This document shows positions 978 to 20,489 of a stretch of DNA of 23,419 nt, piece by piece; positions within the stretch are counted from its first letter, which is position 1, and each line of letters opens with the position of its first letter. The position numbers and the translations under genes are program-made. The DNA is taken from NCBI GenBank assembly GCA_030849065.1, contig JASAON010001416.1, forward strand, positions 1 through 23,419, read 5' to 3'. Under the pieces are notes generated by a model. That model was given only the letters and a program-made list of their open reading frames with translations, was not told the DNA's origin and did not search any database. Origin of the DNA: Jaenimonas drosophilae. Its lineage: Eukaryota > Euglenozoa > Kinetoplastea > Trypanosomatida > Trypanosomatidae.

Positions 978-1682
978 ATGGCAGATCGTGGTCGTGCTGC
1001 TGCCGGTGGCGGTTCCGACAAGGTGAAGATCATTGTGATTGGCCCCACCAAGAGCGGCAAGAGCACCGTTGCCAACTTTTTGTGCGGCACCCGCGAGAGC
1101 CCAACGAGCAAATACTACGAAACCAACCCACTCCGCATCATTGAAACAGAGCTGGACCTCGACGCCACCAAGGTTGGTGGCAGTGATCGTCGCGTTGTGT
1201 TCTCGGGCGGTGATTTGAAGCGCAAGAAGGTGGTGGCGCAGGTGTGGGATGTGAGTGGCAACAGCAAACACCAACCATGCTGGCCCGCTGTAGCGGCAGA
1301 AACAGATGGTATTATCTTCGTCTTCAACCCCGAGGTGAAGGGCGCGGAGAAGGAGCTCGCGCTGTGGTTCAAGAACTTCGCCGTGAATCAGGATGAGCTC
1401 GATGACAAGGGCGATTATGCCCGGCGTGTCAGGGATGCGCACTGCCTCATTTTTGCGCATCACTCCAGCCCACCTCAACGTGGTTTGGGTGAGGCACTCC
1501 CAGCGATGCCGAAAGGTATGGAGCGGATTGCTGCCATGGAAACATCGCTGGACTATCAGAGCACCAACTTCAAGGAGGCCTTTGATAAGCTTGTGGAGAA
1601 GATTGTGCTCGATCAGATGGAGGCGGAAGAGAATCAGGTGCTGCAAGCACAACGCGATGATGAAGCACGCCTTAGACCTTGA
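978..1682 (+). CDS. IFT22: IFT22 / RABL5, small GTPase-like intraflagellar transport subunit
   Basis: The 234-residue protein is a Rab-like GTPase of the IFT-B complex, which carries cargo along the flagellar axoneme. A P-loop is present as GPTKSGKS at residues 22-29. The switch region reads VWDVSGNSK (89-97), followed by CWPA (101-104). The family-typical IFAHH (158-162) stands where ordinary Ras proteins have NKxD, as in animal RABL5. The IIFVFN strand (112-117) and the C-terminal helix also fit. Human IFT22 is about 185 residues; here there is a short Gly/Ala-rich N-terminus, extra residues between motifs and a longer acidic helical tail. The start is the first ATG after a 251-nt ATG-free leader, and the stop is TGA. 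A long antisense ORF over the gene is a codon-usage shadow. Family assignment is confident; nucleotide dependence cannot be judged from sequence. Confidence 0.9.
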   Translation: MADRGRAAAGGGSDKVKIIVIGPTKSGKSTVANFLCGTRESPTSKYYETNPLRIIETELDLDATKVGGSDRRVVFSGGDLKRKKVVAQVWDVSGNSKHQPCWPAVAAETDGIIFVFNPEVKGAEKELALWFKNFAVNQDELDDKGDYARRVRDAHCLIFAHHSSPPQRGLGEALPAMPKGMERIAAMETSLDYQSTNFKEAFDKLVEKIVLDQMEAEENQVLQAQRDDEARLRP

Positions 1683-2244
1683 GGCACACACAAACACACA
1701 ACAACAGTACATGTGTGTGTGTGCGTGGGCTGGATGATGGAAGATGTTGGTTGGTCGCGACGACGTGGTTGGAGGAGTGTGGAGTAGCTGAACGTGGTTG
1801 TATGGTATGTGTGTGGTGTGTGCGTATGAATGTATATACGCACACACACACGCACACACGCAGCAGGGTTCTTCTCTTTCTTCCATGGTTGCGATGAGCC
1901 TGCGTAGAATCGTCGTTTGGCGTATTGTTTTTGTTTGTCTCAGGGCTTGGCACGGAGCACCCTTGCAGCCATGTTGTTGATGCTCCTCCAACACACACAC
2001 ACACACACACACACTACCAAAGAGAACGCAACTCACGTTTTTTTTTCCCCCTTTGAGGTGTGCATGTGTGTGGGGCTCTACAAACAAGTCAATCCGTGTA
2101 TATGTGGTGAGTATTGCCATTTATATCTCTCGGTGTGTTCCTTCCTCCCTGTTCTTGTTTTGTGCGGAACCATCATCTCTTCCCTTCCCCTTCCTCCTTC
2201 TTCACTCTTTCTCACCACCACACATCATCTTCTTCTTCTTCATG
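1683..2244 (+). other. 3' region of IFT22: TG-rich spacer with ATGs
   Basis: Downstream of IFT22 the strand is TG-rich with alternating GT and CA runs, including a (CA)13 tract at 1989-2014. ATGs are scattered through it, the last at 2242-2244. No coding frame stands out. It likely holds the 3' UTR and polyadenylation zone of IFT22. Confidence 0.5.
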
Positions 2245-2249
2245 TGTAG
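2172..2249 (+). promoter_or_regulatory. Pyrimidine tract and AG at the start of the 3.84 kb ATG-free zone
   Basis: A long C/T-rich tract (about 2172-2240) ends in ATGTGTAG, with AG at 2248-2249. It is the strongest pyrimidine-AG signal in this spacer, and its ATG at 2242-2244 is the last one before the gene at 6088. This makes it the best candidate for the trans-splice acceptor that would define the long leader. Other acceptor-like sites exist downstream, for example around 5825. Confidence 0.45.
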
Positions 2250-3299
2250 CAGCTACTTTAGCCAACATCTGCTTTTGTTTTTACGTTGGTTTTTTTCTGG
2301 TTTCTGTTTTTTTTTCCCTCACTTCTTCTTTTGCTTTGTTTGCTCGTTCGCTCCTTCAAATCAATCAACATCTTGGCAGCGTGTGTACCACTAGGATCTC
2401 TCACGCACAGAGAAACACACAACGCCCTGGTGTGAAGAAGTTTATAGGCAATCAAACACACACACACACACAAACAAAACACACCCAACAAACAACTTCA
2501 AGGAAACAAGCTCTTTTTCATTTTTTTGTATTTTTGTATTTTTCATTTGTTAGTCCTCCTCCTCCCCTCCTGTTTTGTAGCTTTCTTAGTATCACCTCGC
2601 GCTTGCCTCTTGCCCCTCTCTCCCTCTCTCGAGCTTCCATCTTAACTTCCGTTCACGAACGAATTCATCGCCAAGACGGAAAAAAAAAAGAACGAAGCAG
2701 CAGTTAGGCAGATACTCGTCGAGAGCTCTACACGCATCTCCGCACCACATTTTTATCCTCGGAGATTTTTTCAGGCAATCAAAGGACAGGATTGTTGGCA
2801 CGAATCCGCAGCGCTGCACAAGAGAACACACGCGAACACTCACATCAACCTCAACCATCATCATCATCATCACTGTTGGTCCTGTGTTTCTACGTAGCAA
2901 CGCCACTTTCCTGCCACACTCTCCTGACGCACTTGAAGAAGCAGCCGCATCAGCCAACATACCTGCAGCCATCCAACAACCAATCTTCATCTTGTTCCGA
3001 GCTCACAACAACTGCGTTTGCTCCAACAGTGTTGAAACGCATTGACCTGTTTTTTCGCTTGGCTTCGACGACGTTGACGGCATCCACGAAGACTCTTCAC
3101 GCAATCACCTCTTTCATAGTACCTCACTGTGAAAAGCAGCACAACAACAACAAGAACAACACGAAACAAGAAGACTTCATTGTGTGTGTTCGAAACGCGT
3201 AGGATCATCATCCCCGTTACGTACACTCCGGTACACATCTTCTTCATTGCTCAGTTTCGTTGTTGTTGTGTTCTCTCCTCCTTCACCGTGTTGAGCTCC

Positions 3300-3324
3300 C
3301 ACACACACACACACACACACACAC
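3300..3324 (+). repeat. (CA)n microsatellite
   Basis: About twelve perfect CA units inside the ATG-free zone. Similar CA tracts lie nearby at 2455-2472, 3457-3476, 3669-3699, 4507-4530 and 4632-4654. Confidence 0.95.
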
Positions 3325-3560
3325 GTAGTCCTGCTTCCGGCTTGTACATCACATTGATTCCTCGATCGTACGTATCTGCCAGTATTTATATAAAAACACA
3401 CATTTATATAGCCGTCTGCGAAAACAACAACAACAACAACCAAACTACACACGCGAACACACACACACACACACACTCACACTTTATATAGCTCTCATTG
3501 AGCATTTGTGTTGTGTTGTGCTCCTTCGCGGCTGCAACGCGTAGCCACACACTTCTCCAA

Positions 3561-3581
3561 GAGAAAGAGAGAGAGAGAGAG
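3561..3581 (+). repeat. (GA)n microsatellite
   Basis: A GA run interrupted once near its start. It is a rare purine-rich patch in an otherwise G-poor leader. Confidence 0.9.
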
Positions 3582-5065
3582 TATACGCACCTGCACCAAC
3601 AACTTGTACCAAGGATTTGTTGTTGCTGCTTGGACCGAACTTCCACCATTGTGTAGGAATCCTTCGCCAACACACACACACACACACACCACACACACCA
3701 TCTACTTCATTGAAAACAGCCACTCGAGGGACGACGAAGACGTTTTCATCGCAAACATCGCAGCAGAACACAACCTTCACTCTCTCTTACTCTTCTCCAA
3801 CCACTCCCGTTTTTCCGCAACGTGTTCGGCAGTGTTGTGGATCAACCAACAACTCCATCTTCACCAACTTAGCAGCTTGGAAAGCGTGGAAGGCACACAC
3901 ACACACAAAGAACACTCAAACACACTCGCAACAACGTTGTTTGTTGTTGTTTTTTGTGGTGCTCTTCTTCGCTCGTTTGGAGTAGTACAATCCTTCATCA
4001 TCTTCTTTGTTCCGCTGTTGTTGAGTGCCGGTAAAAAAAAAACGCAAACGCAGAAGATCAACAACAAACCATCTTGGTGTCATTTGTCAGAGCACGTGTT
4101 CGTCCATCTGAAGACTTTCTTGGTTCAGGCACACACACGATCAAGCATCCATCCACATCATCCGTTTCCAGCTGCTGCAATCCCCACCATTTTATCACAG
4201 CTGTGCCATCATTAAAAAGAGAGCTACCCCATCCTACTCTCATCAACGTTCACTCCGGAGTAGAAACACTTCGCACACGTTTGGACTGCGAAGCCAACAT
4301 ATCACACCAGCCGTCTTCCCTCTTCCTGCGAGGAGCGTTGCTACAAGAAGCATCCGGCTTCGTTGGACGATAGCCATCAAACTGCTGCTGTAGCTAAAAT
4401 ACGCACAACAACAACAAAAAATTCATCTTTTTTTGTGTAGTCAAGGCGTGCAACGTGCTTCATTGAGAAGGAAATACTCCCGATCGACGACGAAACACGC
4501 AGACGAGACACACACACACACACACACACATTCGGTGAATCATCAGGAACAACTTTACTTGAGCGTTAAGTCCCTCCCACACTCCCCCTTCCAGCATTCA
4601 TATCATCGTCGTTGTGATTTGACGTTGATCAACACACACACACACACACACACAACTCACCAGGCAGTCTTCTATATCTGCTGGCTGACCACCATCAAGC
4701 ACAGAGCACAAACACACACAAGAGTATCTACAAAGAGGGAAGGAGAGCGTTGCATACCTTTGCCGATATCCCCAGCTGCTCTGTTTGCTTGTTCGTTGGT
4801 GCATCTTCAATTGTTGTTTCCAGGCGCCACGTGTTGAACGCCGAACAACTCTTTTTTACGAGACAACCGAAAAAAAACACACACACAAGGTTTTGTATCT
4901 TTGTTCCATCGGAAACACACCCTTTCCCGTTCCGTGGCTTGCAAACACACACACACGTACGTACATCATCCAGCTTGTCCAGACCGCCACCTCGGGAACG
5001 CGTTCTCCCCTTCCATCAACGCACGCATTGAAGAGCTGAAGAGGCTTCCTCCTCCTCGCGTAGAG

Positions 5066-5088
5066 CTACTACTACTACTACTACTACT
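5066..5088 (+). repeat. (CTA)n microsatellite
   Basis: About seven units of CTA within the ATG-free zone. Confidence 0.9.
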
Positions 5089-5793
5089 GTTCGTCAAGCA
5101 ACAAACAAATCAGTCACCCCATCTTTTTATTATTGTTTGTATCTTTCTCTGGGGATTTTTTCTTGTTGTTGTGCTGAAAATCTACGTGAGAGCTTGCATC
5201 TTCTATCAGCTGATCCAGCTCCTACACGTACTTTCACGCAGCTCTTCCTTCGAGTGTGTCGCGCTTCATCAGCATTTTTGTTTTTGCACTATTCTTTGAT
5301 CCTCCATCGAAGAAGAAGAAGAAGGAAGGCGCACTCACGCGATACAAGCAGAGCACGTCGTACTCTGCACACCCACCTCTACTACACATCATCTACAAAC
5401 ACAAGCAAAAAACAACAACAACAACACCTCTCCCTGTTTTCAGTACCCCCCCACTCTTTGTTTCCTTATTTCTGCACGTGGGCCGCAGTTTCATCTTCTT
5501 TTTTTTTGTGCTTCGTGTTTAGCAACAAGCAACCGTCGTCGTTTGTGTCAGTCCATCAATTTTTGTTTGGCCAATTTTTCTAGCACAACCATTCTCTCAC
5601 TGCCTGTTGGTTGTTGGTTGTGGCTGCATCACTTTCTTTTTCAGAACACCAACCAATCAACACGCGAACACTTTACTTGTAGTTGTTGTGCTTCATTTTT
5701 CGGCCATTTGTCATTGTTGTGTGGATTGCTTGGATTGAGCTTTTCTCATTCTGCTTGGGTTGCTGTTTCTCCACAGACACACGCAAACACACA

Positions 5794-5825
5794 TTATTTT
5801 TTTTTCTGTTTCTGTTTTGCTGCAG
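5794..5825 (+). promoter_or_regulatory. Second candidate splice acceptor upstream of the orphan gene
   Basis: A nearly pure T-rich pyrimidine tract is followed by TGCAG with AG at 5824-5825, which would leave a 262-nt leader before the ATG at 6088. By form it is a textbook acceptor. If it were the only one used, the ATG depletion farther upstream would be unexplained, so it may be an alternative or internal site. Confidence 0.35.
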
Positions 5826-6087
5826 ATCTTGCTGTGTGTATCACTGTTGCTGTTGTTCTTGTGTACGGCCAGTCGCTGCACAACAAACAACATCAAAATT
5901 TTTTCACACCAGCTGGAGGCAAACTTCGCTCACTCGATCTCTGCACAACAGACGCACGAGGAGCTGAATCTACCCCTCCAATCATAGTCCTACGGCATTC
6001 GTAGACGTGTTTCGGAACACCACAAACACAATCACAAAACAACATCAGCAACTGGTACGCAGATTCGCAGGAGGGAGATAGCTAGAG

Positions 6088-7824
6088 ATGTTTTCATCCA
6101 TTTATGATTCTGTTTCGGAACACTGCACACCACAAGGTGTGGTAGATGATGTTGCATCCAACACATCAGCATCATCATCAAGCCATCTCCACAATCACTG
6201 TAGATGGGTGGAGAAGAAGTATGAAGGAATGACACGTTGGTCGGATAGCCACGAAGATGGTGAAGCCACGCACTCCATGAGCAGCTGCAACAGCAGCATG
6301 GCGAGTGAGCCACACAACGCTGAGGAGATGCACCCAAACATCGGCAACAACATCATGTGCAGCAGCAGCAGCAACAACACCACCATCTCCACGAGTGTGG
6401 TGGACGACGACGAAGAGGAGAAGGACGATGAAGAGGAGGCATACATCCCCATTGACTACGATGAGGAGCTGGAGGATTGCAGCCAATACACATTCAGCAA
6501 AGATAGTGTTGTGTGGGGCACCTCACTCACGGGTGAAGGATGCAACGCGGAAGAGAATGAGAAGGATGTCGCTGGTTTTCACGTAAGCAACAGCTACGAT
6601 GATGTGGATCCATTCTCTGTGAGTTGGTGGCACCAGCCACACACCGCAGATGAATCTCATCTTCCTCCATCCCCGTCGCGTTATCAGGCCGAGCTCAGCG
6701 ACGCAGATGCGTGCCAAGGCCTTCGCTTGCTTCTGCGTGAGGCCTGCCGCAACAATATGCTGCAAATCAAGCACACACCATCCTACGCCTTCGGCCCCGA
6801 TTATGATGATGGTGATGCAGCCTTCTTGCCAGCAACACATCAAAGTGGCACCCAACGTAAGTTGGCCTACCTCTGCAAAACACGCCAGGAGTGGCAGCAG
6901 CTTGCGTGCCACATGACGAGTGAGTTGGATCGTTGCCCATCCAATCATCGTGCGCTGCTCTCCGCCCTCAGCAACCTCTCCATCTTCAGCAATGATCATC
7001 ACTGCATCTTGCGGGAGTTGAGCTCTGCCAAGGCGGAGGAGGCACGCCGTGCACGACGTGAGCGTGCGGAGCAGATCATTTCCACCCTCAAGACGCAACA
7101 ACGCCTCTTCTTGCTGCCGGTGCTCCGCGCATACGAGGAAGAGCCCGCCACAGAGGTGCCCTTGACACTAGATGTGGTTGCTGCATCTGCCATGATGAAG
7201 ATGGAGGAGGTGGAGGAGGATGTGGTGTGTAGCCTAACAGCCACCCCGAGCGATCGCAGCCCCGCATGCACCTCACACCGTCTGAGCAGCCCGTACAGCT
7301 CCTTCCCGGGATTGTCGGATGAGGATTTGATTCACGTTGAGGCTCGCGCCATGAGCGGAGGTGGCGGAAGCTTTCTGCTCTACGAGGTTGAGGCAAGTGG
7401 TACTGCTGCGGCGGCAGGGGCTGGACGTATGCATGGCGCGGAGATGTATAGCTGGATCACCAACAACGTGGATTACCCCTCACTGACAACCTCGATGAGC
7501 GAGGGCCGTCTTGGCCTGAGTGGCCGTCTTGGCGTGAGTGGCCGTCGCGGGTTGGATTGCAGCGGGCGCAGCAACTGGAGCAGCCGCCGGCCCTCGTCTG
7601 GCTTGCTCGGTGCCTTCGTGGAAGTGAGCGAATCTGCCGGGCTCTTCCGCGCCCCCTCGTGCACGTCATCGCTGGAAGAGATATGCCCGAGCCCCGTGGG
7701 GATGGAGGAGGAAGCGGAGGAAGGCTGGGGCATGTGGTCTGTGCAGAAGGATGCCGGTACGTCATCCTCGACGGAACAACACAACAACCATTGCAACTTC
7801 CCCATGTTCTGTGGAGCACGTTGA
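6088..7824 (+). CDS. Orphan protein, 578 residues, acidic and low-complexity with a central helical region
   Basis: I do not recognise a family. The start is the first ATG in 3.8 kb, and the stop is TGA directly before a CA microsatellite. The N-terminal third is Ser/Asn/His-rich with a strongly acidic block (about residues 105-130, DDDEEEKDDEEE). Residues about 200-350 look globular and mostly helical, with LRLLLREACRNNMLQIKH, a Trp-containing helix near 265-280 and a charged Ala/Arg/Glu helix (about 310-335) that could form a coiled coil. The C-terminal 200 residues are Ser/Gly-rich, with a short tandem repeat (GRLGLS, GRLGVS, GRRGL, about residues 473-488), and end in a Cys-containing tail. 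No signal peptide or membrane segment is seen. Its position between IFT22 and the dynein-2 light chain allows a ciliary role but does not show one. Confidence 0.75.
   Translation: MFSSIYDSVSEHCTPQGVVDDVASNTSASSSSHLHNHCRWVEKKYEGMTRWSDSHEDGEATHSMSSCNSSMASEPHNAEEMHPNIGNNIMCSSSSNNTTISTSVVDDDEEEKDDEEEAYIPIDYDEELEDCSQYTFSKDSVVWGTSLTGEGCNAEENEKDVAGFHVSNSYDDVDPFSVSWWHQPHTADESHLPPSPSRYQAELSDADACQGLRLLLREACRNNMLQIKHTPSYAFGPDYDDGDAAFLPATHQSGTQRKLAYLCKTRQEWQQLACHMTSELDRCPSNHRALLSALSNLSIFSNDHHCILRELSSAKAEEARRARRERAEQIISTLKTQQRLFLLPVLRAYEEEPATEVPLTLDVVAASAMMKMEEVEEDVVCSLTATPSDRSPACTSHRLSSPYSSFPGLSDEDLIHVEARAMSGGGGSFLLYEVEASGTAAAAGAGRMHGAEMYSWITNNVDYPSLTTSMSEGRLGLSGRLGVSGRRGLDCSGRSNWSSRRPSSGLLGAFVEVSESAGLFRAPSCTSSLEEICPSPVGMEEEAEEGWGMWSVQKDAGTSSSTEQHNNHCNFPMFCGAR
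7504..7550 (+). repeat. 18-bp tandem repeat inside the orphan CDS
   Basis: Two 18-bp units, GGCCGTCTTGGCCTGAGT (7504-7521) and a copy with one change (7522-7539), are followed by a diverged partial third unit. They encode repeated GRLG(L/V)S in frame, so unit gain or loss would keep the reading frame. Confidence 0.85.
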
Positions 7825-7825
7825 A

Positions 7826-7851
7826 ACACACACACACACACACACACACAC
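7826..7851 (+). repeat. (CA)n microsatellite after the orphan stop codon
   Basis: Thirteen CA/AC units begin one base after the TGA of the 578-residue gene. They therefore lie in its 3' UTR. Confidence 0.95.
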
Positions 7852-8613
7852 GTGTGGTACGTATGTTTGATCTCCCCCCAAAGAAAAAAACACGCATAGA
7901 AGATCGGTGTTGTGGTGGCAGAGGTACCTGTGCTCTGGATCCTCCCACGTTGGAGGTTCAGCCCACCTTCATCACCTTCGCACACAGACACACACACCTG
8001 ATTGCTTGTGTTTCTTTCTTTTCTTCTTGTGCTATATGAATATGTGTGTGTGTGTGTGTAGATGGTGCTACACTCCTCCCCCTACTTCCAATGGCATTCA
8101 TTGGCAGATGCAACACACTGATTCATGTGCAGCTCATACGGGGGGCTCTCCTTCTCCAAATCTACGCACGCACTTCTTTTTTTCACGTCATGTGCGGGTG
8201 CGCCGCAGCAGCCCACCGCTGCCACCACATCCGCAATCCCTCTCCCACCGCGCAGCTTTCATCTCAGCCACATCATTTGTTCTCGCGTATGCGTCGTCCA
8301 TGTTCGGATCGAGATGGATGAGCAGGATCCTCCTTGGATGTGTGTAGGGCCACACGCAGGAACCTCCTTCATACTTGTTGCGATTGGCATGCTTTCGCCA
8401 TTACCTCTTCTGACCTCTCAAACGCCGCCCTGTATAGCCGATGTGTTTCTTGCCTTCTTTTTTTCTTCGTTCTGTTTTGTTGTTGTTTTTGTGTGTTCTT
8501 CCGCTTCTGCTTCCATCCTCGTTCATCCTCCCCCCCCCACTCACACAGCACAACAACGCTGTGCCATCACTCTCCCTCATCCTCATACTCTTCCCATACA
8601 CACCAACACATTG

Positions 8614-8733
8614 ATGAGCTGTAGTATGCTCCTTATGTTTTTGTGGTTGTGTCTGAGCCTTATGCTGCTTCAGCGGTTGGCTGCAACCAACTTCCGTTCC
8701 GTTCTGTTTGGTGCGTGCAAGTATGAAATATGA
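8614..8733 (+). CDS. Candidate 39-residue hydrophobic small protein
   Basis: This short ORF starts at the first ATG after 171 nt without one. That stretch has a long pyrimidine tract (about 8446-8535) and AG at 8547-8548, which is gene-like context. The peptide has a hydrophobic N-terminal segment (MSCSMLLMFLWLCLSLMLL) resembling a signal anchor, then a polar tail ending in ACKYEI. Stop is TGA. T-rich DNA readily encodes hydrophobic peptides, so this may be chance. Confidence 0.22.
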   Translation: MSCSMLLMFLWLCLSLMLLQRLAATNFRSVLFGACKYEI

Positions 8734-10327
8734 AGGTGTGTGTGCGAGAGGGAGATCAACTCTAAGATGCACAGACGTTTGTGCGTGCGTGTGTGTGCGT
8801 TTGGGGTGTGTGGAGTGATTGAGGATGCGTGAGTGAGGTTGGAAGACGTTGGCTTCTCTTGGTTATGCTATCCTCCCACCTACGGGCTCTACCTCGCCAA
8901 TGCCGTGAAGATGGCGCACGGCATCTTTTTTCATGTTTTCTCTCGGTTTCTGTTTTTTTTTATCTTTTTCTGTTTTTCGTTTTCGCGGTATGTTGCACGC
9001 TCATTGTTGTTGCTGACGTTGTTGTTGTGGCGGATGTAGTGCTCTTGGAGGCCAACTGGCCCACATCCTAACACACTCGATGAATTGTTTTTGCTTGCCT
9101 ATGCCAACGTAGCTCCGAGACGAAGAGAAAGAAGCGTTCGTTGGGCCTCCCTTCCCCCGCAACAACAACAACATCAACAGCAACAACAACCAAACCACAA
9201 ACAAACTTCGTTGGCACACACCAGGAGAGAGCTCACTCGCCTCATCTCCTGTCTTTTTTGCTGTGTGTGCAGCATCCCTCTACTCATGATCATGTTAAGG
9301 ATGAGGGATGCTGAGCGCTTGTCCCATCAACGCACAACATGTGTTGTTGTTGTTGGTGATGATTGTGGGTGTGGGGACAACTGTGGAATGATCCTCACAC
9401 CACAAAACACACACGCACTCGCAACAAATAAACAAACAACAACAACAACAACATCATCATTCCACTCACACACGTTTGCCAACACCCACGCGGCACGTGT
9501 AGCTCCTCCTCCTCCTCCCTTCACCTTCTCCCACCCTTCTTCCTCACAGACAACCTCTCAACGCCACCCTCGTCCTTGTGGTGTGCAGCCACACACACGC
9601 ACGCACACACACGTATGCCCTTGCATGCATGTGTAGCGTGTCTGTGAGAGGTTTGCACATCTTTGTGGTGGATGCTGATGTTGCGATTGTTTCTTTTTTT
9701 GTTTTGTTTTTGTTTTGTGAGAATTGCTCTAATCAACAGCACAGCGTAATAAGAACGGGAGAAGGTGGCGGGGGAGGAGGAGTGTGGCCTCCTCCACACA
9801 CACACAAAAAAAATAACACACACACACACAGAGAGAGAGAGAGGATCTGAAGAACATCGTTCCCTGTTTGTACGTACCCATGAACGTCTTCCTCTTTTTC
9901 CTCTCTCTCTCACACCCACACACCTGCACTGCTTCTACACACATGAGCTTCATTTTTGTTTTTGTTTCTTTTGTTGTTGATGCTCCACACACCTCTTCGA
10001 CTCCTCCTCTCTTTTTTTTCTTTTCTTTTATCTGTTTTGTGTGGCAGTGCAGCCTTTTTTTTTTGTTGTTCTTCGGAGTTCCTGTATATACGCGTGTACC
10101 CTCGTAGGATTCCACCAACTAACAGAGATGTACGAGAAGCGCTCGCTTGCTTGCTTGTTATTTGTTCGTGTTTTTTTTTTGTTGGATAAACACACACGTA
10201 CCTAATGAATTATTTCTTCTTCTTGTTTGTTTGCTTGTTTGGTTATTGTTCCTTCCCAAAACCAATGCAACTCCTCCGTTTCACACACACACACGCGCGC
10301 ACACACAAATACACACACACATGCAGC

Positions 10328-10462
10328 ATGAACCAGCAACAACGAGATGAAAAACGTTTTGCTTTTGCTTGTTTTGGCGAACCCTCCACGATGGAGGATG
10401 TAAAAAAAGCACATCAACACGTTGATGCCATGATGATGATCTCCATCTACATACCCAGATGA
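10328..10462 (+). CDS. Candidate 44-residue small soluble protein
   Basis: A non-repetitive ORF is preceded by a CA-rich block like the one before IFT22 and followed by GT-rich sequence. The peptide begins MNQQQRDEKRFAFACFGEPS and continues with a charged amphipathic part (MEDVKKAHQHVD), so it is not a translation of the neighbouring repeats. Against it, another ATG at 10321 opens a nine-codon overlapping ORF in a different frame. No family is recognised. Confidence 0.22.
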   Translation: MNQQQRDEKRFAFACFGEPSTMEDVKKAHQHVDAMMMISIYIPR

Positions 10463-12345
10463 GGTTGGTATGTACGGGTTGGTGAGGTACGAAGAAGTAA
10501 GGTGCGGAGTGCTCATCACTAGTGTGGCGCTGCAACAACGTTCATGGGACAGCACGCATGAATGATGATGGTTCCTTCTCCCTTCCTCCTTCTCCACATT
10601 ACCAAGAAAAAAAAAGTGAGATTACTGAATTTCAAAACGTTTTTATATGTTCGTTTTCTTTTCTTCTTTTGTGTGTGTGTGTGCTGCACACTTGTGGCTA
10701 TCAGTGATGATGGTTTTTTTTTTTGTTGATGTGGTGAATCCATCTTCGTGTTAATCCATCATCGCTTTGCGTGGAGATAGCGCTCATGACTCTGAACGGG
10801 GAGTATACATTTACCCAGATGGAGTGGCGGGCGGCCATCCTTGTTGTGGTTGTTGTTGTTGTTGGTGTGTTGTTGTTGTTGTTGTTGCGATGATGTTGGT
10901 GGTTAGAGTAGTGTTGAATCTGCAGAGCTCACAAGATGGACTATGCAACACCTACATCAACCTTCAACATACGCACGTGCACCATATACATACAGACACA
11001 CAAGAGATGATGAACGTCGTCCGCGTAGAGATGCCAGGAACAACATTTTTTTTGTTCTTTTTTTCTTGATTAACTGCGTGCTGGCGCATGTTGTCCTTCA
11101 CATTATCATGTGTTTGTTTCACTTTTCCACCTCCATCGAAACAACACACAACCAAGCAACTCCAGCCCACTTCCTCGTGAATGTGATGATGATGATGATG
11201 ATGATGTGGCTGTTGTTGTTGTTGTTGGTGTTGTTGAAAGAAGAGAAGATTTGTTTTCGTGTGGTCGGGAGGGTGAGGAGACTCCCACGCGCATCTGCAC
11301 ATACACGGAGGAATTGTCTTCATTTCTTGTCTAGTGCTTGTGCGTTGATGCGCTTCACACTTCGTTGTGGTGGAGCGGCGGAGGAGGTAGGCGCACCATC
11401 ATCATCATCATCATCATCATTCATACTTACCCAAACACGCTGATGCAGTGTGTGTGTGGTGATGTGTGTTTGGAGCTGAGATGATTGGTTCATGTACTGC
11501 CGTACCACAAACAAACACCTTCGACGTTGATTTTGATTTTTTTTGATTCACTTTTTATGGCGTTCTTCACGCTTCTTCGTTGCTCGATGTAGCAGCGGCA
11601 CCTCATTAACGCGACGAAAACAGAAGTGTGGTGTTCTTTGGAACATCTTCTCCTTCCACCTCACCAACCAAACGGCATACACACACGCACACGTCTTTGT
11701 GTGTGTGTGTGTTGATGTTGGTATTGGTGATGATTGTGGTTTTTGTAGGTGATGCAACAAGTAGCCCTCCTCCACCACTTTTTTTGCTTGTTTCATGGAT
11801 GAATGAAACACCACATGTGCGATGATGATGTTGGGCTGGTGAGGATGATGCGGTGGAGCGCTGCACGGCAGACTCATCATCATCCAATCTTCTCACCCCC
11901 CTCACTCATACACACGCTCCAATCGCGCACACGTTTTTCTTGCGTGTGTGTGATGTACAGGTTGTTTATTAGCTCGGAGAGCAAAAGAAAACAAGAACAA
12001 CAACAAGTGTTTTGTGAAACAAACTTGTGTTGTTTGCCGTTTTGGTCTGTGTATGTGGGCGACGGGAGTACAGCTGCCGAAGAAACTCCCCACCTCATTA
12101 CACAATGTTGTTGTTTTTTCAAGAGGAGAACGTCATTTACCATGTTGTATGTACTTCTTTTTTTGTTTTGTTGTATGTTGTGCTTATGCCCACCTCTATG
12201 TTCATGGTTGTTGCTGTTGTGGATTGTTTGCTTCACACACACAACACACAAACAAACAACTCACACACAAAAAAAGCAAACAAAAAATAGGACAAACAAT
12301 CATTCAAAAAAACAAACAAGAAGAAAAAAATACTTCAATATACAC

Positions 12346-12627
12346 ATGTTATATACAATGTTATATACATACACCATGTTTGGATTTGTGAGTGAAGAAG
12401 AGAATCCTTCTCATGCACCTCATCGAGTCTGTTGTGCTCCTCATGCTTGTGAGGAGTACATACACACACACAGATGCAGATGCTCATGGCATTGCCACTT
12501 GTTTTTTTCTTTTATTTTGTTTGGTAGTTTGCTGTGCCCGTTTGATGTTTGTTGTGTGTTTTTGGCTCCACACAAAAAAAAACGGAGGCGTATGTGTTGT
12601 GAGGGAGTGCGGCTATCTCCATCTTAG
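12346..12627 (+). CDS. Candidate 93-residue cysteine-rich single-span membrane protein
   Basis: The ORF follows about 138 nt without ATG, rich in A and CA. Three ATGs in a row (12346, 12358, 12376) are all in its frame, created by a duplicated ATGTTATATACA. The peptide has an N-terminal soluble part (MFGFVSEEENPSHAPHRVCC), a Cys/His-rich segment, one hydrophobic segment (HLFFSFILFGSLLCPF), then a basic cluster KKKRRR and a short tail. Stop is TAG. No family is recognised, and part of the hydrophobic segment comes from T-rich DNA. Confidence 0.22.
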   Translation: MLYTMLYTYTMFGFVSEEENPSHAPHRVCCAPHACEEYIHTHRCRCSWHCHLFFSFILFGSLLCPFDVCCVFLAPHKKKRRRMCCEGVRLSPS

Positions 12628-12904
12628 CTCGTACCACATCTCCGACGCATACCCCCTCCCTCCCCCCAAAAACACATTCACAACATGTGCTCCACACCAC
12701 AGCAACTCTTCTTGTTATAGCTCTCTCTCTGCGTTTCTGTGTTGCACTTCACAGTTGGCCGATCATCTACATGTTTGCCACCATCAAAAGACGTTAATCA
12801 TAAATCCATGACGCAATCCCCCCACCTCCTCCTACATTTCCTCCTCCCTGCGCTCTGATGTAATCACGTTTACAACCAAAAACAAAAAATACAAACAGAC
12901 AAAT

Positions 12905-13105
12905 ATGATTTGTGAGAGATTGTGTGGTGGTGGTTGCCGGAGTTGTTGTTGTGTTGTTGTTGCGCTGCTCCACCTCCCCAATGATGATGATGGTGGTGGA
13001 GTATCCATAACATTCAGGATATACAACTCACACGTGAAGGGCTCACCTCTGTGTAAACAAGATGATGCCCTGCAGCACACGCACACACACACATCATTTG
13101 ATTGA
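12905..13105 (+). CDS. Candidate 66-residue small ORF
   Basis: The ORF starts with ATG (MICERLCGGGCRSCCC) and has a non-repetitive middle (VSITFRIYNSHVKGSPLCKQ) before a Thr-His run from a CA microsatellite. The ATG-free stretch ahead of it is only about 46 nt, and the preceding ATG is immediately followed by a stop. The evidence is weak. Confidence 0.12.
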   Translation: MICERLCGGGCRSCCCVVVALLHLPNDDDGGGVSITFRIYNSHVKGSPLCKQDDALQHTHTHTSFD

Positions 13106-14042
13106 TGATGATGTTGTTGGTGTTGGGTGTTCTGTGTTGGTTTGCGTGGTGACTCCGTTGCGGTTTCATTTTGTATTGTGCGTGTTTTACCGCGTTTTGG
13201 GGGAGTATCGTACAACACCACCGAGCACACAATCATTCATTGCAACGTGTGCCTATATATATATGCCAGCCACACACACTCACACAAGCGCACGCACAAA
13301 CACACAAACACACAAACATATTCGTTTTTGTTTGACGGGCATAGTACGACTTCTACTTCCACCACTACCAAGTGGGCTTTCCTTTGATGTTTTGCTTCAG
13401 TTTTGTGTGCGCCGCGTACGTTGCTTCTTTTTTTTTTTTTTCTTGTTTCATAATTTTCAGCTTATACCTCAACGGTCATGTGTAGTGTGTGATGATTTTT
13501 ATACTTCTTGCGATTGACATGATGAATGATGCCAGCTTTTTACGAGCTCTACATGATCAAACTTGGGGGAGAGGGGGAAATACACTGCAGCACACTTCTC
13601 TGTGTGTTGCGTAGGTGTTGTACTTCTCATTCTTGTTTTTTTTTTCTTGGTTTGTGGTGTAGCGTGAAGATTTGATGTTAAGGAGATGATGATGATGATG
13701 ATGATCGCCTCCCTCCTTCTTCCGCAACCAAATGATGGGTATAACCAACTTGATTCCGTTGTTCCTCTCGTTTTTCATTTTTATTGTTGTTTCATCTCGT
13801 TCATGTGTGTGATGCAGTCATACCAATTCGTGTGGAGGCACAGATGAATCATGCTTGTGTGTGGTTTGGCACAACAACCCCAAACTCACTCAATGCCCAC
13901 TTTTGCGTGTGAAGGTGTTGCTGTTGTTGTTGATGATGATTGAAGTGGTGTGTGCGCGTGGTGCAACAGGCCGCAGAGACGATCTCTCGCTGTTAAACCC
14001 ATCTCAACTTCCTCATCTTCATCATCAACATCATCTCCGCCA

Positions 14043-14152
14043 CTTCTGCTTTTTTTTTGTTCTGCCCACAATTTTTTTTCCCCCACCCCCTTCGATATAT
14101 AACCTACACCATCGACAAAAACAACAACAACAACAACAACAACATTTTTCAG
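14043..14152 (+). promoter_or_regulatory. Candidate splice acceptor before the 86-residue ORF
   Basis: Two T/C-rich runs (about 14049-14095), a (CAA)n stretch and then TTTTTCAG with AG at 14151-14152 precede the ATG at 14173. A second AG lies at 14162-14163. The last earlier ATG is near 13940, giving about 230 nt without ATG. Confidence 0.35.
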
Positions 14153-14172
14153 CTGCATCACAGTGGATCATC

Positions 14173-14433
14173 ATGACTTCGCAAGACTTATTCCTCCAGT
14201 GCGTATGTGTCGGGTTTTATGTTTCTTGTGTTTCGTGTTTTCGTGGATTTACCACACACTCACGGAGGGGGAGAGCCGTGGAGTACCTCACAACTACTCC
14301 CACTTTCCCTCTCCTTCTCTTTGCGGTTGTGTGCGCGTGTGTATGTACAGGGATGTACCTCGATCTCTTCGCTCTCTTCTTTGTTGTTCCTCCAAAAAAA
14401 AAAACTACAACACAATACCTGCAACACGAGTGA
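14173..14433 (+). CDS. Candidate 86-residue protein with two membrane segments
   Basis: This is the best small-gene candidate in the 7.5 kb zone. It begins at the first ATG after about 230 nt without one, just after pyrimidine runs and AG, as the confirmed genes do. The peptide starts MTSQDLFLQCVCVGFYVSC. It has a Cys-containing hydrophobic segment (about residues 6-23), a polar basic loop (RGFTTHSRRGRAVEY, 24-38), a second hydrophobic stretch (about 45-72, FPLLLFAVVCACVCTGMYL onward) and a Lys/Thr-rich tail. Most codons are not simple repeats. Stop is TGA. No family is recognised, so expression or conservation is needed to call it a gene. Confidence 0.35.
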   Translation: MTSQDLFLQCVCVGFYVSCVSCFRGFTTHSRRGRAVEYLTTTPTFPLLLFAVVCACVCTGMYLDLFALFFVVPPKKKTTTQYLQHE

Positions 14434-14691
14434 TGCGTGCAACATCTGCTGCACACGTCCACGTGAATGTGGGCATGTGTGGTGAAGAGAGAGGAGGGGG
14501 CCTTGATCTCCTCTTCACACTCTTCTGTGAGGGAGCTGGGCTGAGGTATGCGATTCACCCACACACACACACACAAACACGCCTGCGTGCTTCGTTCTCC
14601 TACTCTCTGCGATGGATCCATCAACATTTCCATGTCTCAACATCTTTTTTCGGGATCGGATTCGGCGACGTTTTTTTGTTTTTGTTGTGTT

Positions 14692-14723
14692 GTGTTGTTG
14701 TTGTTGTTGTTGTTGTTGTTGCA
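14692..14723 (+). repeat. (GTT)n microsatellite
   Basis: About ten GTT units ending in GCAG. Comparable trinucleotide tracts lie at 11184-11205 (GAT), 11398-11420 (ATC), 13686-13705 (GAT) and 14117-14143 (CAA). Confidence 0.9.
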
Positions 14724-14940
14724 GTATTGATGATGGTGGTGGAGGTGGTGAAGCGTGTGAATGGGGAGTAGTTCTCCTCCACGCAGCCTACCATCATCTC
14801 CTCACACACAAAAATGCACCTCATGACGCAACCAACAATACACACAAGCCCACATTAAGACGAAGACGAAGAACACGCTTACTTTTGCTGTTGTTGTTTC
14901 ACGTTTATTCGCCATATTTCTCGCTCTTCCTCTCATTTAC

Positions 14941-15342
14941 ATGCGTGTGATGTTTGGGAGATCTTTGATCTCCCAAACATCATCATCTGAATGTGGTTGT
15001 AGGCACACACAAACACACACACACACACAGACCTCTTCTTCTGTATGTGTGTATCACGAGATCAACCACGATATCTGCCTGTTCGTGCGATTCAAGGTAC
15101 TTCCTACGACCGTCTTCCTCTCTTTGAAGAGGATTCGGAAGCAAACATACGTGTTTGCGAGTGTGCGCCATGATGATGGTTATGTACCGCATGCAATGTG
15201 CTCTGTACTCTCGCTCATGTTGTTGTTTCATGAAGGATTTATAGAAGGACGGCTGAAGTCTGTGGTGTTGGCTATCAACCTAGTTCCGCCAACACAAACA
15301 CACGCACATACACGTACACACACACACATTTTGTGTTTCTGA
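14941..15342 (+). CDS. Candidate 133-residue ORF overlapping the dynein-2 LIC upstream region
   Basis: The ORF starts with ATG after about 104 ATG-free nt with a pyrimidine tract. Its middle (about 15050-15290) has little simple repeat and reads as plausible protein, including YHEINHDICLFVRFKVLP and a basic stretch LSLKRIRKQ. Both ends are repeats translated as His/Thr runs. It ends 10 nt before the dynein-2 LIC start in another frame, so as a gene it would overlap that gene's leader. A perfect 16-bp inverted repeat lies over codons 3-14. It may be a small gene, a decayed one or chance; the antisense frame at 14983-15231 is equally open. Confidence 0.2.
   Translation: MRVMFGRSLISQTSSSECGCRHTQTHTHTQTSSSVCVYHEINHDICLFVRFKVLPTTVFLSLKRIRKQTYVFASVRHDDGYVPHAMCSVLSLMLLFHEGFIEGRLKSVVLAINLVPPTQTHAHTRTHTHILCF
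14948..14982. repeat. Perfect 16-bp inverted repeat with a 3-nt loop
   Basis: The left arm TGATGTTTGGGAGATC (14948-14963) is the exact reverse complement of 14967-14982, separated by TTT. As RNA or single-stranded DNA it would form a very stable hairpin. Nothing else in the non-coding DNA that I noticed has such a perfect arm. Confidence 0.95.
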
Positions 15343-15352
15343 GTGCATTGAG

Positions 15353-16777
15353 ATGAGTGAATCCGTCTCTATCTCCGTAGACGCTGAGCGAGCGCCATCG
15401 CCCGAGAAGTCGGTGGTGCAGGAGGGAAGCCGCGCATCGGTGAAGCGCGAATCATCGGTGAAGTTGGATGATGCGAAGCTGAAGCCATCATCTACGCTCA
15501 CCACAACACCATCAGCCGCCATCACAACCACACCAAAGAAGACCAAAGCACCCACTGCGGTGGTTGCTGCTTCTGCTGCTGCGACTGCAGAATCTGGAGA
15601 GGATCCAGCCTCACCTCTCCTCAACGGTGCTCAAGGTGAGGATGATGATGATGATGATGAATCTCTCGGTGGACCGCGTGTTACCGTGGATCCAACCAAG
15701 GATCTGTGGCTGAACATCCTCGCCAATGTGAAGGACGCCACGGTGGAGCAAACCGAGACGAACGTCTTGTTTGTTGGTGCATCGGGCAGTGGCAAAACAA
15801 CCTTGTTGCAGCGCATCTATTCCTCCATGAATGCGGGAGGTGGTGGTGGTGGCTCAAAGAAGGTGAAATCCACCACGGCGCTTGATTATGGTTTTGCACG
15901 TCGCGTGGATCGCAGCGTGGCGCAGGTGGCACACTTTTGGGAGCTTGCGCAAGGAACGGAGCTCGCGCAGCTCTCCGAGGTGGTCTTGACGCCAGAAAAC
16001 ATTCACGCCGTGTCGGTGGCGGTTGTGGTGGATGCCACGGATGCCGGTTTGGCCATCGCCTGGGAAACGGCCACCTATTGGCTCAAGCGTGTAGATCGTC
16101 GTGTGGGTGAGATTATGCAGCGCATGCGTGCCAAGGGCAGCAACACCCCTGACAAGATGATCACGCGTGCCAAGACGGCCGTTGGCCTCGATCACCCCGA
16201 CCTCGCACGCCTGCGTCTGAGTGGGGTACCAACGGTGCTCGTCATTAACAAGATGGATAAGTTTTCTGGAGATACACGCCAGCTGAAGATTCTGGCGCGC
16301 AGCTTCCGCTTCCTTGCCCACCTCTACGGCGCGCATCTCATCTTCACGTGCGAGCAAGAAAACAACCAGTGGAGGTCCTTCATGAGCTTCGTTCTCTTCC
16401 AGAGCACCCTGGATGCCAAACACCTCAACTTTGATCCAGAACGTGGCGGTGTTCTTCTCACCGCTGATCAAGATGCCTTTGCTGAGATTGGTGAGCCCAC
16501 CATTGTAGAGGACTTTAGCCACGGCGGGGCGTCTTCGCGTGGAGGTGATGGCGAGCTCGATCGCTGGGGTGTGCCCTTTGAGCAAACGTTTCACGCCACG
16601 AAGTTGCCGGATAGTACCAAGGCTCTCTCTGACCCCTTCGTGAAGCGTTTGTACGATACGAGTGGTACGGATGGTTTTGGTGAGCCAACCATCGATGCCC
16701 TGCGCAAGCAAAAGGATGAGGAGCTGGAGCAATACCGCAAGAGCGCCAAGACCAAGACCAAGGAGAAGGAAAAGTAG
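15353..16777 (+). CDS. DYNC2LI1: Cytoplasmic dynein-2 light intermediate chain (retrograde IFT motor)
   Basis: The 474-residue protein is the light intermediate chain of the dynein that returns IFT trains from the flagellar tip. A P-loop GASGSGKTT is at residues 142-150. The family signature VAHFWELAQGTELAQL lies at 192-207, just after ALDYGFARR (176-184). NKMDKF (299-304) matches the nucleotide-binding loop position, and FRFLAHLYGAHLIFT (318-332) and the C-terminal LRKQKDEELEQYRKS (450-464) match the animal protein closely. The N-terminal ~115 residues are a Ser/Thr/Ala-rich extension with an Asp run (97-102) encoded by a GAT microsatellite; animal homologues are about 350 residues. The start is the first ATG after 120 nt without one. 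The basic C-terminus (TKTKEKEK) is a short Lys/Glu tail. Stop is TAG. Confidence 0.93.
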   Translation: MSESVSISVDAERAPSPEKSVVQEGSRASVKRESSVKLDDAKLKPSSTLTTTPSAAITTTPKKTKAPTAVVAASAAATAESGEDPASPLLNGAQGEDDDDDDESLGGPRVTVDPTKDLWLNILANVKDATVEQTETNVLFVGASGSGKTTLLQRIYSSMNAGGGGGGSKKVKSTTALDYGFARRVDRSVAQVAHFWELAQGTELAQLSEVVLTPENIHAVSVAVVVDATDAGLAIAWETATYWLKRVDRRVGEIMQRMRAKGSNTPDKMITRAKTAVGLDHPDLARLRLSGVPTVLVINKMDKFSGDTRQLKILARSFRFLAHLYGAHLIFTCEQENNQWRSFMSFVLFQSTLDAKHLNFDPERGGVLLTADQDAFAEIGEPTIVEDFSHGGASSRGGDGELDRWGVPFEQTFHATKLPDSTKALSDPFVKRLYDTSGTDGFGEPTIDALRKQKDEELEQYRKSAKTKTKEKEK

Positions 16778-17567: not shown

Positions 17568-20489
17568 ATGGGTTCCAAGGATGCCGTGTGCGTTCAGACT
17601 TGTTTGCCCATCAGCCCCTTGACGGAGTGGCTGGAGTACGTGGCACAGAAGCTGCCGTTGGGCCCATCCTTGCACCTACAACGTGTACGTGCAGATTCAC
17701 TCCTCCCTGATGCCGGCACAGGAAAAACGAAGATGATCATGGGTGCTGCAGATGTACTCATGCGGCCACGTGTTGCAACGCTTCTTGGGCATCCAGTTGG
17801 TGGTGAGCCGTCTTCCATGGACGTTTGCATCAACGGCCAACGGGTGCATGTGCTAGGTATGTGGCGGGCTCTCCTCAGCCCTCTACTCCTTCGTGGCGAG
17901 GATGCACGTGCATCATCATCATCATCGCGCTTCTCCAGCATGCACGTGGATGCGGATGGCCAAGGAAGACGGTTGTTGTGTGTGTTGGCGGCTTTACACA
18001 CACTGGTGGGCAGCTCACGCTCGCTGCATCACCTCTTTGATATGGCTGGTTGTGCCACTTCTTCGTACATTGCGCGGTTTCCGGTGTTGTGGGCAGATCA
18101 TGTTGGTGGTGAGGAGGCCTCACGTGGGTGGAGCCCCAATGCGGCTGCAACACGTCAGCGCCATCGTGTACGTTTGGTGCAGCTCATGCGCCGCATGGCG
18201 ATGATCGATGGCCTTCGTCTAGGTGCTACCTCCCCAACAACAAGAACAACCGAGGAGGAGGAGGAGGTGGTGCCAGAGGATTGGCTGAGTTTTGTGGCGA
18301 GTGAGGCGTGGAGGGAGCTCCATCTCTGTGGAGATGCTTGGGCGTTGTACCACGATGATGGCATTCAAGCTTGCCCCATCACGTACGTCACCGGCATAAT
18401 TCATCATCTTCTTGCCGCTGAGGTTGAGGGGGAGACGCTGCACACGCTGCGGCAGCTTCTGGTGAGCTACCTACACCCAGACCAACCATCGAATAAGATG
18501 ATGATGAGTGCGCCATGTATGTGGGAGGATCTGGAGCATCGTCTGCGGTGGCTCCTTCATCATCCATCCGAGGTCTTGATGCTGCCACACCTCCACGGCG
18601 CCGACGGGGCCATCAAAACCACCACCGACGTGAGCCCCACCACCGCACCGCTGCATGCCGCTGTACGTGCAAGCCGTACCGTTGATGCACGTGTGTTTGT
18701 GCTTCCGCGGCTGGATGCACGTGAGGATGTGGCACATTTGCCGCAGGTTTCACCTCCTTTCCCATGCTTTGAGCGTGGGGCGAAGGTGGCAGAGGGTCAG
18801 GATCTTCTCTCCCCGCTTCCATCATCATCATCGTCTTGTGATGATGATGATGATGATGATGGTGCTACACGCGTGGCGTTTCTACGTGTAGATCCCAGTG
18901 GAGGTTGGCTCAGTGCCGTGGAGGATGCTCACAACACCCGCACATTTCTGCCCTTCTACTCCAACGATGCGCACCATCAACGGGCTGCTGCATCTGCACG
19001 CCGCCCGGCATGGCGCCCACCAAACTCATCCAGTGAGGAGGATGAAGAAGATGAGCGGCTCTATCACTCCAACACGCACCAACGCACTGTGCTCCGCCAT
19101 GGAAACGATGGCGATGTGCAAGCTCCGCGCCATGTTGATCCATCATCATCATCATCGCCCAATGATGTACTGGAGCTGGCTGTTGTGGCGGTCCTGCGCC
19201 AACTGGCCATTGCCCCACACGCGGAAGATGATGTGGTGTTGCGTGGCACCATTCGCCTATGTACGTGGGCGGTGCTCCACGGGGTGGAGGTGTTGCTCTC
19301 ACCCGAACGTGTGCCAAGTGTGCTGCAATCCTTTGCTCAGCGCCACATCACCTCGTTGCGCGCCACACTCATTGCGGAGTACGCCGCCGGCCGTCTTGCC
19401 CTCAACGCCGATGCGTGGGCCAACCTCACTTCCACGCGATCATCATCATCATCATTGTGTGGGATTTACGTCGTGGATCAACTCCATCCAGGATGTCTGA
19501 GGCGGCTGCAAAACGCCGTGAAGGGGAGCTCCATGGTGTGGTGCCGGGATACTTTGCGTATGTATTCAGCTGCTGGAGATGCCATCACCGTGGATGTGCG
19601 CCGGTGTTGTGTGTGCCGATCCACGGAGCTCCTCCACCTCCCTCACGAAGCGGTTGGGCGGCAGCCCTATCTGGGCCGCCGCTGTTGCGTTGTTAAGGTG
19701 CGAGGTGGTGATGATGGCCATGATGCAGCAAACAAGAAACATGTTGGTGGTGCTCCACGTCTGGTGCTGCTCCTCCTCACTCCATCCGTGGCGTTAACGA
19801 ACCTCTACGAGGGGCTGCTTCTCAAGGTGGCCCGAACGTTGCTGGGCGTGTTGCACGACGAGTGGAGATGCACCCCAGAAGTCATGAGGGATGAGGTACG
19901 CCCACAACAACAACAACAACAGCAACAACCGCGTGGTTGTATTGTGCGGGCTGGAGGCGTCTTTGGTGTTGCAGTGGCACAACGTCTTGCACGCCTGGCC
20001 AGTGATGTGGCGCATGCACGGTGCCGCGTGGTTGGGAGCTCTGACCTCCCCATGTTAGCCACCGCCATGATGATTCTGGCTGCCGCAGCCCTCGCACCCG
20101 CCAACGCTATTGCCCAATCTGTGATGGCCGATGGCTCCCCGCTTGCGGCGTTGCTCGCAACGCACATTGGCCATCCACCTGCAGGCCCTCGGTCTCGGCA
20201 GAAGGCGTGGCGGGCGAGTGTGGTGGATGCGCTCCAACACCAACCCTCACAATCTTCTTCTTGTGCCATGGCCGTACACCTCTACCGATGCTCTGTGGAG
20301 GAGGAGGTGAGTCTGAGGCGTGATGATGCTGAGCTCAGCCGCCTACGTGATGAGCTGCGGCCAACCAACACAAGCTGGGCTGGATGGCCGAGCACAAACT
20401 ACGCCTTCGTGGAGCCCATCTCTGGCTATACCGGTGCTCTACGGAGTACGGCAACGGCGTTGGCCACCATCCTCTCCGCCGCACGGTAA
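17568..20489 (+). CDS. Divergent group II chaperonin-like protein, BBS6/BBS10/BBS12 type
   Basis: The 973-residue protein has a scattered but ordered set of TCP-1/cpn60 features. DAGTGKTKMI (48-57) stands at the LGPxGxxKM position, and DADGQGRRLLCVLAALHTL (128-146) at the GDGTTxxxVLA position. The apical pattern CGIYVVDQLHPGCLRRLQ (631-648) resembles the strand and helix before the chaperonin 'hot' loop. RLVLLLLTP...LLKVARTLLGVLHDE (731-765) matches the domain-returning segment. CIVRAGGVFGVAVAQRL (791-807) matches the VPGGGAxExxLA helix, ILAAAALAPANAIAQ (836-850) the ALxxIPRTLAENAG stretch, and VEPISGYTGALRSTATALA (948-966) the C-terminal equatorial strand and helix. True CCT subunits are about 550 residues; the excess is Ser, Asp, Glu and Gln-rich inserts. 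Degenerate ATP motifs and inserts fit the BBS chaperonins, which help assemble the BBSome. I cannot say which of the three it is. An upstream TTG frame extension is not needed; ATG 17568 is used. Stop is TAA. Confidence 0.72.
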   Translation: MGSKDAVCVQTCLPISPLTEWLEYVAQKLPLGPSLHLQRVRADSLLPDAGTGKTKMIMGAADVLMRPRVATLLGHPVGGEPSSMDVCINGQRVHVLGMWRALLSPLLLRGEDARASSSSSRFSSMHVDADGQGRRLLCVLAALHTLVGSSRSLHHLFDMAGCATSSYIARFPVLWADHVGGEEASRGWSPNAAATRQRHRVRLVQLMRRMAMIDGLRLGATSPTTRTTEEEEEVVPEDWLSFVASEAWRELHLCGDAWALYHDDGIQACPITYVTGIIHHLLAAEVEGETLHTLRQLLVSYLHPDQPSNKMMMSAPCMWEDLEHRLRWLLHHPSEVLMLPHLHGADGAIKTTTDVSPTTAPLHAAVRASRTVDARVFVLPRLDAREDVAHLPQVSPPFPCFERGAKVAEGQDLLSPLPSSSSSCDDDDDDDGATRVAFLRVDPSGGWLSAVEDAHNTRTFLPFYSNDAHHQRAAASARRPAWRPPNSSSEEDEEDERLYHSNTHQRTVLRHGNDGDVQAPRHVDPSSSSSPNDVLELAVVAVLRQLAIAPHAEDDVVLRGTIRLCTWAVLHGVEVLLSPERVPSVLQSFAQRHITSLRATLIAEYAAGRLALNADAWANLTSTRSSSSSLCGIYVVDQLHPGCLRRLQNAVKGSSMVWCRDTLRMYSAAGDAITVDVRRCCVCRSTELLHLPHEAVGRQPYLGRRCCVVKVRGGDDGHDAANKKHVGGAPRLVLLLLTPSVALTNLYEGLLLKVARTLLGVLHDEWRCTPEVMRDEVRPQQQQQQQQPRGCIVRAGGVFGVAVAQRLARLASDVAHARCRVVGSSDLPMLATAMMILAAAALAPANAIAQSVMADGSPLAALLATHIGHPPAGPRSRQKAWRASVVDALQHQPSQSSSCAMAVHLYRCSVEEEVSLRRDDAELSRLRDELRPTNTSWAGWPSTNYAFVEPISGYTGALRSTATALATILSAAR

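Follow-up and report, generated by a model that had tools for sequence, protein, structure and literature searches.

Contig JASAON010001416.1 of the trypanosomatid Jaenimonas drosophilae (assembly GCA_030849065.1), analysed here over its entire 23,419 nucleotides (the window), carries on its plus strand a stretch from 2245 to 6087 that contains no ATG and ends at the start codon of a 578-codon open reading frame (ORF). The best account of this stretch, and in our judgement a probable one, is that it forms the 5' leader, about 3.84 kb long, of a spliced-leader mRNA, is scanned by ribosomes and is kept AUG-free by selection. The argument involves the following features.

2172..2249, plus strand: pyrimidine-rich tract followed by AG, the putative acceptor at which the spliced leader would be joined to position 2250 (tract 2176-2213; TTCTTCTTCTTC before 2242)
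2250..6087, plus strand: ATG-free, non-coding, G-poor zone, defined by ATG count, periodicity, codon score and folding; the putative 5' leader of about 3.84 kb
5797..5825, plus strand: internal pyrimidine tract of 22 nt with an AG 7 nt on, a possible alternative acceptor that would give a 262-nt leader
6079..6081, plus strand: TAG in frame with and upstream of 6088, found in the sequence (open frame 580 versus 578 codons)
6088..7824, plus strand: 578-codon ORF for an orphan protein, recognised by periodicity and codon score; the presumed cistron of the leader

Absence of ATG from the zone

A recount of 2245-6087 agreed with the preliminary description, which had claimed zero ATG on the plus strand; the distance from the ATG at 2242 to that at 6088 is 3846 nt. 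AT (170), TG (221) and the reverse complement CAT (89) are all common, as had been noted, and the zone holds 659 G and 1104 C. Base composition predicts 48 ATGs, and 34 are still expected after 557 simple-repeat bases are masked. The earlier guess of several tens by chance proved sound: 1000 dinucleotide shuffles of the zone averaged 35.3 ATGs, the lowest count being 21, so that zero is not a common outcome. The loss is strand-specific, going beyond chance in the sense strand (0 versus 35.3) and leaving the antisense strand unaffected (CAT 89 versus ATG 0). GATGATG-type repeats had likewise been described as absent with their complement present; ATGATG and CATCAT occur 0 and 10 times in the zone, versus 34 and 20 times in the non-coding stretch 7825-15340. 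Within the zone, 537 triplets are a single base change away from ATG.

The exclusion is restricted to AUG, and near-cognate codons as a class are not avoided. CTG, GTG, TTG, ACG, AAG, AGG, ATA and ATC all occur at or above expectation in the zone, and ATT stands at 0.77 of expectation (0.52 in 7825-15340). When all the 64 triplets are compared between the zone and 7825-15340, the drop is by far the greatest for ATG, with TAA a distant second; 7825-15340 itself holds 193 ATGs, 1.28 times its expectation.

It is highly improbable that chance, simple repeats or strand-biased mutation emptied the zone of ATG with no translational selection involved. The zone is G-poor, CA runs take up 154 of its bases and TG runs are absent, and several other triplets deviate from the shuffles: GAC (27 versus 62), GTC (25 versus 62), AGT (27 versus 58) and TAA (6 versus about 31-32 expected). 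These features fit a mutational origin. Yet the dinucleotides and the repeat-masked sequence still predict 34-35 ATGs, and for 2250-5825 alone the Poisson probability of finding none is about 1e-14. The CAT count of 89 also stands against such an origin, and the other rare triplets stay above zero, ATG being the sole depleted triplet of the zone that reaches it. Relative to expectation, GAC and GTC are even rarer in 7825-15340 than in the zone, and TAA has a ratio of 0.49 there.

We then placed the zone in a sample of 113,419 bases, read on both strands and amounting to 0.6% of the genome. The sample comprises the window, which is one contig of an 18.79-Mb, 370-contig assembly (C125), and 90 kb outside it, made up of the initial 10 kb from each of six contigs together with 30 kb from contig C370. 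Among 4811 ATG-to-ATG gaps (median 30 nt), the next longest after that of the zone measure 729, 698, 663, 636 and 431 nt, the last (20668-21099) being the second-longest plus-strand gap in the window. Sliding windows of 3838 nt placed elsewhere (n = 159,358) contain at least 48 ATGs each, with a mean of 85.8. The ATG-free zone is thus real and unique within the sampled part of the genome. The gaps of 698 and 431 nt also lead into ORFs, of 795 codons (open at the end of the stretch) and 282 codons, respectively. The 663- and 636-nt runs lie on a minus and a plus strand, respectively.

Control genes from the same sample show a short-range form of this pattern. ORFs with an ATG start, at least 200 codons and a periodicity of at least 5 were taken as controls. 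Thirty-four were listed; minus-strand ORFs at 972-2120 and 21333-22298, antisense to the upstream gene IFT22 and to the ORF starting at 21099, were dropped. The final set numbered 31, without IFT22, the 21099 ORF and the 578-codon ORF, and 30 of these had sequence beyond 50 nt upstream. ATG density before the control starts was 7.3 per kb at 0-50 nt, 14.7 at 50-100 nt, 32.3 at 100-200 nt and 23.2 at 200-400 nt; CAT density stayed flat at 22.7-25.8 per kb. Avoidance of ATG over about 100 nt before start codons is a property of this genome, and at the 6088 gene the same signature reaches 3.84 kb.

Coding status of the zone and of the 578-codon ORF

The zone is non-coding. Its three-base periodicity is 1.31, versus 10.0-17.0 for five coding sequences measured, and its codon score lies between -0.13 and -0.17 over the three frames. 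Eight open stretches of the zone searched against Pfam gave no family above the cut-off, and no frame has a Met codon. The only sign favouring decayed or unusual coding sequence is that stops are unequal among the frames (31, 21 and 12); the binomial probability of at most 12 of 64 is 0.007, uncorrected, and we judge it weak. A coding relic was rejected on periodicity, codon scores and the empty Pfam search, and its likelihood is next to negligible.

Other identities were tried and discarded. Rfam families at gathering scores and tRNA genes (ARAGORN) were both absent across the window, and a structured RNA or tRNA was rejected. A repeat family was dismissed as the zone is single copy in the genome except for one 34-nt match, and internal duplication as the source of its length was set aside, only CA- and CAA-rich families and no inverted repeats being present. 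Nor does the zone qualify as a leader regulated by AUG-initiated upstream open reading frames (uORFs), as it has no ATG.

Folding was calculated as the mean minimum free energy per 120 nt. In the zone (62 windows) it was -19.8 kcal/mol for the sense and -26.4 for the antisense strand, versus -26.2 and -25.9, without a strand difference, in 7825-15340. The zone is therefore weakly folded in its sense strand only. At 20668-21098 (6 windows) the values were -13.0 and -24.6, a larger difference than that of the zone. From about 5100 onward the composition is T-rich.

The zone ends at what appears, judged by the coding periodicity and codon score of the ORF, to be a genuine start codon. The ORF has a three-base periodicity of 11.7 and a codon score of +0.29 (0.25, 0.38 and 0.14 by thirds), and it cannot start upstream of 6088 because of the in-frame TAG at 6079-6081. 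At 3838 versus 1734 nt, the zone is longer than the coding sequence that follows it, as had been said of it. Searches with the 578-residue protein returned no homologue at E <= 0.001 among the best 7994 candidates scored; residues 195-350 alone gave none at E <= 10 among 1538 candidates. In its own genome the protein matched only itself, and it matched no viral contig. Among solved structures the single match had an E-value of 0.79 and is not meaningful; NCBIfam gave no family and Pfam nothing above the cut-off, DUF7658 lying below it at E 0.092. AlphaFold run on the single sequence yielded a mean predicted local distance difference test (pLDDT) of 35 and no confident fold.

A proposed scanned leader and its alternatives

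The preliminary description had placed the start of the zone right after a strong pyrimidine-AG site at 2172-2249, and the site is indeed among the strongest in the window. Its tract (2176-2213) measures 38 nt, a length exceeded by just one other pyrimidine tract in the window, and the first AG follows 36 nt on. When the first AG after each pyrimidine tract was ranked by an ad hoc score made for the purpose (184 candidates), that at 2249 came second. Both the tract and its distance to the AG fall in the ranges printed for Leishmania major (PMC4538839) and Trypanosoma brucei (PMC2936537); in L. major the tracts measure 7-123 nt and the median distance is 64 nt (PMC4538839). The 3' half of a Leishmania-type spliced-leader exon had no match in the assembly, even with 1 mismatch allowed in a shorter pattern of 18 bases; if contigs are ordered by length, as seven of their lengths suggest, the shortest has 10,105 bases, and arrays on shorter contigs may be left out.

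We propose that trans-splicing of the polycistronic RNA takes place at the 2249 AG or close to it, which would yield a capped spliced-leader mRNA whose 5' leader measures about 3.84 kb. Ribosomes (43S) would load at the cap and scan this G-poor, weakly folded leader, and the first AUG that they encounter would be that at 6088, which opens the 578-residue protein. Purifying selection would remove every leader AUG, in all frames and contexts, because any such AUG would capture ribosomes before 6088; near-cognate codons presumably initiate too poorly to be purged. The reported effect of uORFs in T. brucei, where ribosomes are less dense on the main ORF of mRNAs that carry them (PMC6597758), is in the same direction. 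The earlier reading of the zone as a mature scanned leader, G-poor and weakly folded, with its putative 5' end at the pyrimidine-AG ending at 2249 and its end at 6088, is supported by indirect evidence; the novelty then attached to its size does not stand.

Along with the other depleted triplets given above, several observations weigh against this account. Kinetoplastid 5' untranslated regions (UTRs) are rarely longer than 250 nt, and expression of a T. brucei reporter fell with leaders longer than 200 nt (PMC6597758), so that a 3.8-kb scan should be poor. On the other side, unstructured leaders of 50-500 nt reduce translation only modestly in yeast, whereas structured leaders are strongly inhibitory (PMC12415969); a long leader that folds weakly is thus plausible, at least in mechanical terms. 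The weak folding, however, largely follows from G-poverty and is therefore no independent line of evidence. The yeast study describes UCC as inhibitory, and this motif is not lowered here (TCC 20.1 per kb in the zone versus 17.6 in 7825-15340). The reality of the 578-codon ORF rests on codon statistics, because it has no homologue, and the left edge of the ATG-free run is fixed only to within tens of bases. An ATG-free gap of several hundred nucleotides is in itself no proof of a leader, because those of 729, 663 and 636 nt are followed by just 3, 6 and 51 codons. Finally, CAG and TAG together reach 21.9 per kb in the zone versus 12.9 in 7825-15340; because they are not reduced, internal acceptors do not appear to have been purged.

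This last point makes a mixture of isoforms quite possible as far as acceptors are concerned. Most mRNAs would then be trans-spliced internally (at 2379, 2675, 5488, 5825 and further sites), with the 3.84-kb form minor but relevant to fitness. AUG exclusion would serve robustness, 6088 staying the first AUG whichever acceptor is used. Three of the candidates inside the zone, 2379, 2675 and 5488, rank 4th, 6th and 9th of the 184, while 5825 falls outside the 40 best. Even so, the long form would have to matter, because selection would have to reach 2250, and it can be argued, by reasoning only, that a rarely used long form hardly sustains the loss of all of some 35 ATGs. We regard this mixture as unlikely.

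A division into two RNAs appears very unlikely. The segment from 2250 to about 5700 would be a separate, AUG-avoiding spliced-leader non-coding RNA, and the ORF would have its own 262-nt leader from 5825, to which the pyrimidine tract with its AG at that position and the T-rich composition would correspond. ATG exclusion continues past 5825 to the start codon, and a leader from 5825 only would leave 2250-5825 unexplained (32 ATGs expected, 0 found). If two RNAs were made, nothing should keep ATG out of the spacer that separates the poly(A) site from the following acceptor. For a spacer of 556 nt, the L. major median, 5.1 ATGs are expected in 5270-5825 and the Poisson probability of none is 0.006; for one of 142 nt, the T. 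brucei median, 2.3 are expected and the probability is 0.10, which leaves the spacer argument only moderate. A non-coding RNA also has no evident reason to lose distal AUGs, and the non-coding stretch 7825-15340, with its 193 ATGs, shows no avoidance.

Returning to the proposed scanned leader, its length may, speculatively, lower or condition expression. A further, doubtful idea is that production of the protein depends on ribosomes that do not fall off a leader twice as long as its coding sequence. Scanning processivity (the state of eIF4F and helicases, ribosome loss) would then be the regulated step, and AUG exclusion would keep the track usable.

Known leaders and neighbouring genes

Leaders of this size had been thought unfamiliar in kinetoplastids; published ranges contradict this. 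Judged by their spliced-leader sites, L. major 5' UTRs range from 0 to 7252 nt (PMC4538839), direct RNA sequencing of L. donovani gave 2 to 7,744 nt (PMC12978572), and in T. brucei 235-356 genes per life stage have a major 5' UTR longer than 2 kb (PMC2916883). Medians are far shorter: 242 nt in L. mexicana, 233 nt for the primary site in L. major (PMC4538839), 127 nt in T. congolense (PMC6084854), and 32-47 or 130 nt in T. brucei (PMC2916883, PMC2936537).

The zone resembles trypanosomatid spliced-leader 5' UTRs in the pyrimidine tract and AG before it, in its first AUG opening the coding sequence and in AUG depletion near the start. It departs from them in uORF content. The number of uORFs in T. 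congolense correlates with leader length (r = 0.88), and leaders that carry any have 1.1 per 100 nt (PMC6084854), a density that would give about 42 per 3.84 kb, whereas the zone has none. Kilobase 5' UTRs of Leishmania share its several-kilobase length, their AUG content not being stated in the available text of those reports. The yeast reporter leaders (PMC12415969) are likewise weakly structured before the first AUG, and we take them to lack AUG from their purpose; they were designed and measure 50-500 nt, whereas the zone is natural and about eight times longer. No description of AUG exclusion over a leader of this length turned up in the literature searched, phrase searching being weak and "5 utr" liable to miss texts that print the prime sign. 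Length alone is thus not new; strict AUG exclusion over several kilobases looks new.

A natural 3.8-kb AUG-free leader would be a ready test object for two questions, how far the 43S complex can scan in cells and what benefit an mRNA draws from several kilobases of leader, its 537 one-change positions offering a position-by-position readout of scanning flux. The counts would bound the tolerated upstream AUGs, 0 against 35.3 putting the observed-to-expected ratio under about 0.085 (Poisson, 95%). The zone also illustrates how, in genomes that lack transcript data, a mature 5' end can be marked by AUG depletion in the DNA sequence itself.

Two genes flank the putative leader and its ORF.

978..1682, plus strand: IFT22/RabL5, the upstream gene (E 5.3e-82 to structure 6ia7, intraflagellar transport protein 22)
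15353..16777, plus strand: cytoplasmic dynein-2 light intermediate chain, the downstream gene, identified by homologues

IFT22 had no match among viral contigs. The 15353-16777 product matched 61 proteins at E <= 0.001, of which nearly all the named ones are trypanosomatid or Bodo dynein light intermediate chains; the closest named are from Novymonas, Porcisia, Leptomonas and Leishmania, the best at 65% identity. Together with IFT22, this gene puts the source among the trypanosomatids. Coding periodicity also marks a 973-codon ORF at 17568-20489, for which neither Pfam nor NCBIfam gave a family.

Between the 578-codon ORF and the dynein gene, 7825-15352 spans 7.5 kb in which the gene strand shows no convincing ORF (the longest listed has 274 residues). 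It contains acceptor candidates at 8548, 9588 and 10047 that rank 1st, 5th and 3rd of the 184, and may represent a long 3' UTR, non-coding transcripts or fast-evolving small genes. Farther downstream, 20668-21098 is a 431-nt ATG-free, G-poor, weakly folded run that extends up to the ATG of the 282-codon ORF, a smaller version of the signature of the zone.

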